Shown piece by piece: positions 18,034 to 50,207 of a stretch of DNA of 51,611 bases. A program made the position numbers and the translations under genes. The stretch lies in assembly GCA_013151235.1 (NCBI GenBank), contig JAADIO010000061.1, forward strand, positions 1-51,611, given 5' to 3'. The notes beneath the pieces were generated by a model. The model worked only from the letters and a program-made list of their open reading frames with translations, did not search any database and was not told the DNA's origin. The first letter of the stretch is position 1. Each line of letters begins with the position of its first letter. Origin of the DNA: Deltaproteobacteria bacterium. GTDB taxonomy: Bacteria > CG2-30-53-67.

Positions 18034-18996
18034 CTATCTCTGACGCCCCCTTTTCTTGCGAGCCCTGGGATGCGCACGGTCATAGACCTCCATCAGTTTC
18101 CCCATGCTCAGGTGGGTATACTTCTGCGTGGTGGAGAGACTGACATGGCCTAAGAGTTCCTGAATGGAGCGGAGATCGGCGCCGCCGTCGAGAAGGTGGG
18201 TGGCGAAGGAGTGGCGCAAACCGTGGGGGGAAACCGGCTGGGAAAGCGCCGCCTGACGGACGGCCTTGTCCACCACGTTCCGGATCCCCCGGACGCCGAG
18301 CCGGTTTCCGAATCGATTGAGAAAGAGAGGGGTCCCTGCTCCCTCCCGGAGGAGACCTTTCTTCTCCACCTCCTTTTTTTCCGCCAGATAGACCTGCAGG
18401 GCGGCAACCGCACGGGAACCCAAGATAACGATCCGTTCCTTGCGCCCTTTTCCCGTCACTTTCATCAGGCCGACGGAAAGGTCCACAACCTCTTCATTCA
18501 GCCCCGCCAGTTCGCTGATCCGGATGCCGGAAGAATAGAAGACCTCCAGGATCGCCCGGTCCCGCGCGCCCAATTCAGTCTTTGTATCAGGGACCTCCAT
18601 CAATCGAAAAACATCATCAACGCTCAGAAAGTGGGGGTGCCGTTTGGCTGCCTTTGGTGTCGCAACCACCTTGGCCGGATTGATCCCGATCACCCGTTCC
18701 CGATGGAGAAAGCGGAAAAAGGCTCGCAGACTCGCCAGTTTTCTCCCCATGGAACTCTTCTTTAACTTCTTCTGATGGAGGGAGGCAAGGTAGTGGCGGA
18801 TCACCCGGTTATCGATCCCTGCGATCCCGTCGGAATCGAATTTACGGTGCTGCAGAAAAGCGGCAAACTGGTTCAGATCACTGATGTAGTTTCGGAGGGT
18901 ATGGGGGGAGACATTTTTTTCGTCCTGCAGATACCCTTCAAAGGCGGTGATCAGCTCTCCAAAGGGCAGCGGATCGGAAGGTGACTCCGGTCTCAT
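18034..18996 (-). CDS. xerC: Tyrosine recombinase XerC
   Basis: Site-specific recombinase that with XerD resolves chromosome dimers at dif. It is 320 residues from ATG 18996. The SAM-like core-binding domain covers about 15-100 ([19 protein letters not shown]). The catalytic domain shows Arg in [12 protein letters not shown], the H-x-x-R box [12 protein letters not shown], the second His in [14 protein letters not shown] and the downstream Tyr, so the active site is complete. The frame is open 225 bp further upstream, but that part lies inside trmFO. The chosen ATG overlaps the trmFO stop by 4 bp and gives the family length. The order topA-trmFO-xerC is conserved in many bacteria, so this is the chromosomal Xer enzyme rather than a phage integrase. 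Confidence 0.93.
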
Positions 18997-37486: not shown

Positions 37487-37627
37487 ATGATCCGGAAATC
37501 CTTTATATTTGATGCTCTCGTAAAAAGTTGTTTTCCGGATTCCGTTCATGGTTCGACAGGCTCACCACGAACGGAATATCAATCACTTACACCGTTCGCC
37601 CTGAGCTTGTCGAAGGGCTTTTCGTGA
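37487..37627 (+). pseudogene. Original 5' end of the surA-like gene, now a 46-codon leader frame read into the MITE
   Basis: ATG 37487, with GGAG seven bases upstream, begins MIRKSFIF, a typical signal-peptide start. After eight codons the frame enters the inserted element at 37512 and ends at TGA 37625-37627. Joining the sequence before the element to that after it, keeping one 8-bp target repeat, restores one frame that runs MIRKSFIF(I/V)LFLLG to the AHA cleavage motif of the downstream gene. The insertion (132 bp plus 8) shifts the frame. The stop overlaps GTG 37624-37626 as GTGA, which would allow coupled restart of the surA-like gene. Confidence 0.75.
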
Positions 37628-37643
37628 CTTTTTACGAGTCCAT
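37512..37643 (+). mobile_element. MITE-like element, copy 1, inside the surA-like signal peptide
   Basis: The 132-bp element has terminal inverted repeats ATGCTCTCGTAAAAAGT (left) and, on the opposite strand at the right end, ATGGACTCGTAAAAAGT. Inside, GGTTCGACAGGCTCACCACG and CGCCCTGAGCTTGTCGAA are inverted to each other around TATCAATCACTTACAC, so the whole unit can fold into a long hairpin. The flanks TATATTTG (37504-37511) and CATATTTA (37644-37651) are an imperfect 8-bp target duplication. There is no coding capacity for a transposase. Confidence 0.85.
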
Positions 37644-38562
37644 CATATTTATCCTCTTTCTTCTCGGAACGCTCGGCACCGCCCACGCGGAGATTCTCGA
37701 CCGAATCGTCGCCGTTGTCAACAACGATGTCATTACCCTAAGCGAGCTGAAACAGGCGGAGACCTCTATCCTTCAAACCGGCCCGTCTTCCTCGAAACCG
37801 GCCCCGGCCAAACTCCTTAACGAACTCATCAACAAAAAAATAAAACTGCAAAAAGCCAAGGAGTTGGGGATCGTCGTCTCCGATAAAACCGTGGACGACG
37901 GCGTCAACGAGATCGCCCAACGAAACGGTCTGACGGAAACAATTCTGAAAGAAAAACTCAAGAAGGAGGGCATCCCCTGGAACGACTACAGGGAACAGAT
38001 CCGCGACCAGATAATTCTGACTCGGATGCTGAACCGGGAAATCCGCTCCAAGATTGTCCTGCTCCCCGAAGAAGCGAAGGAATACTATCTGAAGCACCAG
38101 GACCGTTTCGTCCGTAAAGCAAAAAAACATATCCTCAGGATACTGCTGACCCTGCCCGAAGGAGCAACACAGGAGATCATCGACGCCCGAAAGGAGGAGA
38201 TGGAGAAATTACGAAAACGGATCGTAAGCGGTGAGAATTTTCGGCAACTTGCGATTCGTACCTCTGAGGGACCGGAAAGCAAAAACGGGGGAGACCTCGG
38301 TGACTTTGCCGAAGGTGAACTCCGGGAAGATTTGAGCCGGGCGATTGCAGGATTGAAGGCCGGAGACGTCTCTTCCGTCTTCCGGACACCGGAGGGAATT
38401 ACCCTTCTGATGGTCGAAGAGATCAAAAAGCCCAAACCCATTCCTTTTGAGAAGGTCCAAGATTCAATCCGGAAGGCCCTCTACCAGGAAAAGGTAAAGA
38501 AAAAATACGAGTCCTGGATCAAGGAGCTACGCGAGGAAGCCTACATCGAGATTAAACTCTGA
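37624..38562 (+). CDS. surA: SurA-type periplasmic chaperone/peptidyl-prolyl isomerase with element-altered start
   Basis: Periplasmic chaperone for outer-membrane proteins, 312 residues from the GTG chosen here. The mature part after AHA has the SurA N-terminal domain (EILDRIVAVVNNDVITLSEL, ELINKKIKLQKAKELGIVVS) and one parvulin domain (KKHILRILLTLPEGATQEII, GGDLGDFAEGELREDLSRAI, FRTPEGITLLMVEEIKK), shorter than the two-parvulin E. coli SurA. The native ATG is cut off by the transposable element. GTG 37624 in its right arm has GAAGGG six bases upstream and yields VTFYESIIFILFLLG, a hydrophobic core without basic residues in front. A longer in-frame TTG start at 37528 would add 32 residues translated from the element. 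The 3' end overlaps convergent hemH by 11 bp. Confidence 0.82.
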   Translation: MTFYESIIFILFLLGTLGTAHAEILDRIVAVVNNDVITLSELKQAETSILQTGPSSSKPAPAKLLNELINKKIKLQKAKELGIVVSDKTVDDGVNEIAQRNGLTETILKEKLKKEGIPWNDYREQIRDQIILTRMLNREIRSKIVLLPEEAKEYYLKHQDRFVRKAKKHILRILLTLPEGATQEIIDARKEEMEKLRKRIVSGENFRQLAIRTSEGPESKNGGDLGDFAEGELREDLSRAIAGLKAGDVSSVFRTPEGITLLMVEEIKKPKPIPFEKVQDSIRKALYQEKVKKKYESWIKELREEAYIEIKL

Positions 38563-47590: not shown

Positions 47591-47620
47591 ATGCCCTCAT
47601 TTGCTTCGCACACAAGATTT

Positions 47621-47797
47621 AATGGTGTCGTAAAAGTTGCTCACAAAGTTCCGTTCATGGTTCGACAGGCTTCCGAGCATGGTGAGCTTGCCGAACCACA
47701 CGAACGGAATATCAATAACTTACACCGTTCGTCCTGAGCGGGCCTGTGCTGAGCCGGCCGAAGGGTCGAAAGGCTTCGTAACTTTTTACGACACCAT
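47621..47797 (+). mobile_element. MITE-like element, copy 2, with perfect 8-bp target duplication
   Basis: The element is about 177 bp, bounded by AATGGTGTCGTAAAAGTT on the left and the inverse ATGGTGTCGTAAAAAGTT on the right. CAAGATTT is duplicated on both sides (47613-47620 and 47798-47805). The interior shares GGTTCGACAGGCTT, GAACGGAATATCAAT and ACTTACACCGTTCG with copy 1 but carries about 45 extra bases derived from the same motifs. It lies in the gap between csp and the convergent amylase gene and disrupts no frame. Confidence 0.85.
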
Positions 47798-47834
47798 CAA
47801 GATTTCGGAATCCCCAAAGTTGACCACAGCGGGA

Positions 47835-49278: not shown

Positions 49279-50052
49279 ATGCGGAAGACAACCCCCCTGA
49301 TTCTGCTCCTTATTGTTGCAGCACTGATCGGCTCCTTCTTCTATTCCCGGGCACGCAACCGGGCACTGACGGAAGAGTTGGAGAAGCTGCAACAGGAGAT
49401 CACTGCGTTAAAGACCTCATCGGCAAAAACGGAAAATCTTCTTGCCGCGATCAACAAACGGCTCAACCCGCCGCCGAAAACGACCTGGATCGGGATTGAC
49501 GACGACCCGATGCTGGGAAAAAAGGATGCCCCGGTCACGATCATTGAGTTTTCCGAGTTCCAGTGCCCCTACTGCGCCCGCTTTGCGTTGAACACATTTC
49601 CGGAGATCCGGAAAAAATATATCGATACGGGGAAGGTCCGTTTCGTCTTTCGTAACTATCCGCTGGCGTTCCACAAGAACGCTGCAAAAGCGGCGGAAGC
49701 CGGGGCCTGCGCCGCCGAGCAGGGGATGTTCTGGAATCTTCATGACATCCTCTTTCAGCACCACGACACGCTGACGCAGGAAAACCTGAATCGCTACGGC
49801 AAGGAGGCCGGCCTCTTTATGGATGACTATCTTTTCTGCATGGAGAGCGGCAAACATACCGTGGAGATCCAAAAGGACATCCGGGACGGGAAACGGGCCG
49901 GCGTCACGGGGACCCCGAGTTTCTTCATCGGAGTGACCCGGAAGGATGGCCGGATCAAGGGGACGATCCTCCGGGGGAGTGAGCCCTTCGCCGCCTTCCG
50001 GTCCCTGATCGAAGAAAAACTGCAGGAAGCCGCATCCATGATGGTGTCGTAA
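49279..50052 (+). CDS. Membrane-anchored DsbA/BdbD-type thiol-disulfide oxidoreductase
   Basis: Envelope thioredoxin-fold protein of 257 residues. An uncleaved N-terminal anchor (about 6-22) is followed by a coiled coil (LTEELEKLQQEITALKTSSA) and a DsbA-like domain with active site FQCPYCARF and the cis-Pro loop GTPSFFIG. AAAGGA lies six bases before the ATG. A role in oxidising or isomerising exported proteins, possibly including apocytochromes, is inferred. The last three residues (MVS) and the TAA come from the MITE-like element inserted at 50041. Without it, and with one target repeat removed, the frame would end AASMAPR and TGA. The catalytic domain is unaffected. Confidence 0.9.
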   Translation: MRKTTPLILLLIVAALIGSFFYSRARNRALTEELEKLQQEITALKTSSAKTENLLAAINKRLNPPPKTTWIGIDDDPMLGKKDAPVTIIEFSEFQCPYCARFALNTFPEIRKKYIDTGKVRFVFRNYPLAFHKNAAKAAEAGACAAEQGMFWNLHDILFQHHDTLTQENLNRYGKEAGLFMDDYLFCMESGKHTVEIQKDIRDGKRAGVTGTPSFFIGVTRKDGRIKGTILRGSEPFAAFRSLIEEKLQEAASMMVS

Positions 50053-50170
50053 AAAGTCATGAAGCCCTTCGACAAGCTCAGGGCGAACGGTGTAAGTTAT
50101 TAATATTCCGTTCGTGGTGAGCTTGTCGAACCATGAACGGAACCCGGAAAACGACGTTTTACGAGTTCAT
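50041..50170 (-). mobile_element. MITE-like element, copy 3, with perfect 8-bp target duplication
   Basis: The 130-bp element has ends ATGGTGTCGTAAAAAGT (left) and inverse ATGAACTCGTAAAACGT (right), flanked by CATCCATG at 50033-50040 and 50171-50178. The interior is that of copy 1 in reverse orientation, with TTCGACAAGCTCAGGGCGAA and TGGTGAGCTTGTCGAA forming an internal inverted repeat. It has no coding capacity. It provides the stop codon of the DsbA-like gene. Confidence 0.88.
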
Positions 50171-50207
50171 CATCCATGGCCCCCCGTTGAAATTTCGATG
50201 AAAATTC

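Follow-up and report, generated by a model that had tools for sequence, protein, structure and literature searches.

Bacterial MITEs such as RUP, NEMIS/Correia, ERIC, Nezha, and Chunjie have been reviewed (PMC10969869), and archaeal MITEs which share only their ends with a partner insertion sequence are also known (PMC3852290). REPINs are made of two short hairpin words in inverted orientation (PMC3116915). IS1272, a member of the IS1182 family of insertion sequences, uses stem-loop replacement and generates no target duplication (PMC5678879). Short hairpin words are a recurrent feature of intergenic DNA in many phyla.

Here, we analyzed a window of 51,611 nucleotides from a deltaproteobacterial genome (contig JAADIO010000061.1), which contains three related repeats. 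The family to which they belong resembles the known bacterial MITEs in its short non-coding form, inverted ends, target duplications, and many intergenic copies, but differs from them in that one set of ends encloses many unrelated hairpin cargos within a phylum and even within a single genome. Its cargo is similar to a REPIN in being an inverted word pair; however, the words are enclosed by DDE-type ends with duplications, and no linkage of them to a Y1 gene was seen. The candidate partner insertion sequence resembles the IS1182 family (including IS1272) in transposase match, DDE domains, length (approximately 1.9 kb), single gene, and inverted ends, although its score is below the family cut-off. 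Moreover, whereas IS1272 makes no duplication, the elements described here leave a regular 6-bp duplication (exact in the insertion sequences of genomes G446 and G222) and are therefore not of the IS1272 mode.

We consider it likely that the repeats form a MITE family with 19-bp ends which is moved in trans by the transposase of an IS1182-like insertion sequence, and whose cargo is free between the ends. The MITE system itself is real and extensive, and the interchangeable hairpin cargo is its interesting part. Several hairpin words are shown here to be cargo of a single MITE system for which the ends, the target, and a candidate enzyme have been defined, so that their mobility can be tested directly. 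The results also point to a group related to IS1182 which regularly generates a 6-bp duplication, unlike the stem-loop replacement reported for IS1272.

MITE Copies in the Window

The borders of the three copies were set by alignment. Copy 1 (134 bp, minus strand) occupies positions 37,511–37,644 between two exactly matching ATATTT target duplications (37,505–37,510 and 37,645–37,650), and its ends and interior align to copy 3 at 91%. Copy 2 (178 bp, minus strand; 47,621–47,798) has an altered left end (AATGGTGTCGTAAAAGTTG), the right end GATGGTGTCGTAAAAAGTT, and an enlarged hairpin cargo, and is flanked by an exact 7-bp duplication, AAGATTT, at 47,614–47,620 and 47,799–47,805. Copy 3 (132 bp, plus strand; 50,040–50,171) starts with GATGGTGTCGTAAAAAGTC and has the right end GATGAACTCGTAAAACGTC on the reverse strand, with exact ATCCAT duplications at 50,034–50,039 and 50,172–50,177. 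The cargo of copy 3 is an inverted pair of the hairpin words TTCGACAAGCTCAGGGCGAACGG and CCGTTCGTGGTGAGCTTGTCGAA (50,068–50,130), whose 23-nt arms are 87% complementary, and the entire element folds into a single hairpin (z = -5.9). The same word pair is found in copy 1 in the other orientation (37,552–37,614), the whole of copy 1 being oriented opposite to copy 3. All window copies sit between genes or at gene edges.

The three copies had been recognized in a first-pass annotation, the borders of which shifted only slightly in our alignment, and, as it stated, no copy has a protein of its own. The annotation correctly described inverted ends but gave their length as 17 bp, whereas they are 19 bp long. 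Its 8-bp target duplications (CAAGATTT and CATCCATG) resulted from assigning the outermost bases of the inverted ends to the target, and the duplication of copy 1, which it took to be imperfect, is exact. Copy 2 is indeed the longer element; its added length is extra hairpin-word sequence, which was also observed in several other copies (L011, L020, and L022).

Ends, Target Duplications, and Copy Number

The MITE end is the 19-bp sequence GATGNNNTCGTAAAAAGTC, in which positions 5–7 are variable. The 2.62-Mb genome containing the window has 131 exact ends versus none for the reversed control pattern, and 158 occurrences of the 11-base end core versus two for the control. A blastn search with copy 3 matched 58 places in this genome. 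We also collected 94 distinct elements from many genomes by requiring an exact duplication (chance match of approximately 1 in 4,096 for 6 bp), which was 6 bp long in 80 of them and 7 bp in the other 14. The consensus of the duplications is AWNNWT (W represents A or T), with A as the first base in 148 of 160 readings; this consensus played no part in the selection. The elements are 59–329 bp long, with modes at 132–133 and 151–155 bp, and contain no transposase. Thus, the genome-wide search proposed in the first-pass annotation yielded dozens of copies with consistent ends and target duplications. The elements are short sequences which do not code for their own mobility and are bounded by 19-bp terminal inverted repeats and a target duplication. 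Helical phasing of element lengths was also considered and rejected; it was a by-eye judgement, and the lengths in the window genome do not follow it.

When one genome per species was scanned, at least 116 stretches with these ends were detected, mostly in Deltaproteobacteria/Desulfobacterota; Aminicenantes, Nitrospirae, and Neomarinimicrobiota were among the matches listed. We further examined 395 genomes sampled from the phylum to which G060, the genome with the Desulfobacterales locus L144, belongs. The exact end was present in 116 of the 395, with a maximum of 584 in one genome, and the control pattern was found once. Viral contigs gave 20 matches, few of which are real elements and most of which resemble chance. 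The congener G001 has another, abundant MITE of approximately 160 bp whose ends are of the same kind (GATGACC… / GATGGCTTCGTAAGAAGTC); it breaks the assembly of G001, being located at about 50 contig ends (e.g., L064, L070, and L135).

Insertion Events and an Empty Site

The syntenic site in G001 lacks copy 3; the gene order around it is the same, and the site measures approximately 57 bp instead of the 165 bp of the window. An empty site of the kind which the earlier annotation had suggested looking for in related strains is therefore present in this congener. In the window, the last codons and the stop codon of the DsbA-like gene upstream of copy 3 are supplied by the copy itself. Copy 1 was inserted within the stretch that encodes the signal peptide of a surA-like gene; its flanks, when joined, read through as MIRKSFIFILFLLGTLGTAHAEILDRIVAVVNNDV, and SurA_N and PPIC domains lie downstream of the copy. 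This gene may now start elsewhere, perhaps inside copy 1. In genome G183, an element of one type was found inserted into another type. The family has thus been mobile in the past. Considering the ends (131 versus 0), the 94 duplications with their AWNNWT consensus, the copy number, the empty site in the congener, and the split signal peptide, the three window repeats are MITEs, that is, non-coding, non-autonomous mobile elements.

The nested pair in G183 is located at L347 (contig C7, approximately 18,500–18,700), where a CATTGCGAGGAGCG-type MITE lies inside a GTCATTCCGG-type MITE and both have the same ends.

A Probable Partner Insertion Sequence with the Same Ends

A search of MITE-bearing genomes for DDE transposases revealed, in G001, a 605-amino-acid protein whose gene has an end with a single mismatch on either side. 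This insertion sequence is 1,937 bp long, and its flanks (AATCCT and TTCTTT) show no matching duplication. The insertion sequence of G446 (1,924 bp) has an exact ATTGTT duplication, and its removal in silico together with one duplication restores a reading frame of 670 amino acids; that of G222 (1,916 bp) has an exact AATCTT duplication. Relatives of the G001 transposase in the phylum of G060 have the same ends. An autonomous element with the ends of the MITEs is thus found in G001, G446, G222, and other genomes, and the full-length insertion sequence that the first-pass annotation had recommended searching for does exist, with a length of approximately 1.9 kb.

Around transposase relatives with at least approximately 44% identity, ends were mostly located at most 450 bp away on one or both sides (0–2 mismatches of 16, 14 loci), whereas relatives at 26–37% identity had no such ends (4–8 mismatches, equal to the control). 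A relative with 39% identity in Microvirga has a variant of the ends. Judging from these loci, the ends track the transposase protein. The best family for this protein is NCBIfam transpos_IS1182, which covers most of its length (E-value approximately 1e-45 to 1e-48); the scores of 155–163 bits are below the curated cut-off of 270, and the partner was therefore classified as IS1182-like rather than as an IS1182 member. The protein also contains Pfam DUF772 and DDE_Tnp_1/DDE_Tnp_1_6 domains, both DDE models scoring over their cut-offs. Candidate residues D162, D382, and E508 are invariant in five proteins. A predicted structure of the transposase had a pLDDT of 52, and a search by sequence found no solved structure for it.

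Of this transposase gene, the window genome retains no more than a broken 5′ piece (C33:49668–49872), while its congener G001 has an intact gene of the family. The decayed fragment fits a MITE family which outlived its partner, and we infer that the partner was lost or decayed in this genome; high-copy elements may also be absent from its assembly, which consists of 73 contigs. Based on the same ends on the insertion sequences, the tracking of the ends with the protein, the DDE domains, and the decayed fragment, the IS1182-like transposase is probably the enzyme that moves the MITEs. The non-autonomous elements are inserted at AWNNWT sites with a 6-bp (sometimes 7-bp) duplication; according to this model, the DDE transposase of the insertion sequence acts on them in trans. 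If the enzyme needs the ends only, any DNA between two ends could travel; the commonest cargo is an inverted hairpin-word pair, making the entire element an imperfect palindrome.

The MITE interiors have no similarity to five of the insertion sequences beyond the ends, so the MITEs did not arise simply by internal deletion from the insertion sequences found. Such an origin is common for MITEs but is not required. We also compared the occurrence of the transposase (E-value ≤ 1e-20) in the 395-genome sample: It was detected no more often in MITE-rich genomes (at least 20 exact ends; 3 of 41) than in the others (24 of 354; P-value = 0.75, Fisher's test). On the other hand, the exact end was found in 12 of 18 close-partner genomes, picked by hand from the search matches, versus 104 of 377 others (P-value = 0.0009), some of these ends being the partner's own. 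The scarcity of the partner in MITE-rich genomes may reflect either short-lived partners, assembly loss, or a second enzyme.

Several other candidates were rejected. ISNCY had been suspected as the mover on account of its 6–7-bp duplication; its best model matches (in G002 and the window genome) have other ends. A span of 1.55 kb (L233) consists of two MITEs around a cytochrome-like gene. Locus L123, which looked like the autonomous element, is a MITE whose hairpin is interrupted by an IS1182 element.

Interchangeable Hairpin Cargo

Clustering of the interiors revealed 12 groups under the same ends. The larger groups are TTCGACAAGCTCAGG/CGAACGG (the window type), GTCATTCCGGCGAAAGCCGGAATCC, GCGTTGCGCTGCATCCTTCGTC, and CATTGCGAGGAGCG..GAAGCAATC, and the smaller ones include CACCCTGAGCGAAGCGAAGGGTCT and CACCCTGAACTTGTTTCAGGGTCT. 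Unrelated hairpin words within the same ends were observed in Desulfobacterota and other phyla, and three cargo types occur side by side in G183. The ends are fixed and the cargo is interchangeable. Most interiors are inverted word pairs, in which case the entire element forms one hairpin (z = -5 to -13). Some elements have an unstructured interior and the shortest is 59 bp long; therefore, structure of the cargo is not required. The modal length of 132–133 bp is common to three otherwise unrelated interior groups.

Of the 71 TTCGACNNGCTCA words mapped in the window genome, 57 are located within 250 bp of an end (approximately 3% expected by chance). The words also occur without these ends: An identical 31-bp stretch is present on plasmids of Sphingobium, a plasmid of Comamonas bears a word pair, and the MITE ends were absent at the two plasmid loci inspected (one of each genus). 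Thus, the words are passengers and do not define the element. The suggestion in the first-pass annotation that such words belong to mobile elements holds within the window genome, but elsewhere the same words are also found without these ends, and the ends with unrelated words. Neither the words nor the end core, searched as exact sequences in a collection of papers, gave anything relevant. The cargo word GTCATTCCCGCGAAAGCGGGAATCC is similar to the dRS3 motif (ATTCCC N8 GGGAAT) of the Neisseria dRS3 and intergenic mosaic elements; no dRS3 enclosed by these MITE ends is known.

How the cargo is acquired is a part of the explanation which we infer. One conceivable but improbable route is that hairpins are swapped as cargo while the ends stay the same, through the kind of structure-dependent stem-loop replacement reported for IS1272, with the MITEs acting as cassette carriers. 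The unrelated words under one end set, three of them in one genome, the shared length of 132–133 bp, and the IS1182 element within the hairpin of the L123 MITE are compatible with such a process. If it takes place, MITEs would help to spread common intergenic hairpin words between bacterial lineages.

At L123 (G004:C150, approximately 861–2,786), the inserted element belongs to the IS1182 family (364 bits, over the cut-off) and lies at the tip of the MITE hairpin; this MITE has the same ends, with AATATT/AGTATT outside it. The arrangement fits the hairpin-targeting habit of the IS1182 family and hints at one way in which hairpin cargo could change. At four other loci of the window genome (L021, L023, L098, and L106, at the ends of contigs C41, C69, C45, and C53, respectively), hairpin words are broken by common foreign ends (…GACATAATGGCTGACAGTTGGC… and …TTGATATGGTTGACAGTTGT…), probably those of an insertion sequence for which these hairpins are the target and at which the assembly breaks.

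Alternative Explanations

The MITEs might have another, unseen transposase as their main mover, the IS1182-like elements merely sharing or borrowing the ends. In line with this idea, no member of the transposase family could be detected in 38 of the 41 MITE-rich genomes, and the MITE interiors are not derived from the insertion sequences found. However, these insertion sequences have the same 19-bp ends and the same 6-bp AT-rich duplication, a decayed fragment of the gene family persists in the window genome with an intact copy in its congener, and no other transposase was found between ends in approximately 400 kb sampled from the richest genome or at any inspected locus; we therefore regard an unseen mover as unlikely. 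The transposases of the ISL3, IS66, or ISAs1 type proposed in the first-pass annotation are scarcely tenable as movers: Their 8-bp repeats can be drawn at copies 2 and 3 if terminal end bases are taken as target, but the length of 6 or 7 bp in the 94 elements refutes them, and the sole transposase found between the ends is IS1182-like.

The REPIN-like inverted word pair and five Y1_Tnp matches in the window genome could also point to a Y1 (RAYT) transposase as the mover of the hairpins, with the outer ends being incidental. This is very unlikely, since the exact 6-bp duplications are at the outer ends and not at the words, the cargo is unstructured in some of the elements that have these ends, and none of ten inspected Y1 loci has words or ends nearby; hairpin words were absent near both window-genome Y1 loci inspected (L330 and L336). 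That the repeats are non-mobile structures under selection, such as terminators or regulatory hairpins, would agree with their strong folding (z = -5 to -13) and with the position of the window copies between genes or at gene edges. Nevertheless, such a reading is hardly credible in view of the exact duplications in 94 elements, the empty site in the congener, the insertion inside the surA-like reading frame, and the insertion of one element into another. No Rfam family matched the elements. Single copies of these MITEs may be co-opted.

The RAYT-like Y1_Tnp matches of the window genome (G000) include C48:70384, C19:71389, and C16:25234. Within the window, Rfam also identified three tRNA genes in tandem at positions 364–699 on the minus strand.
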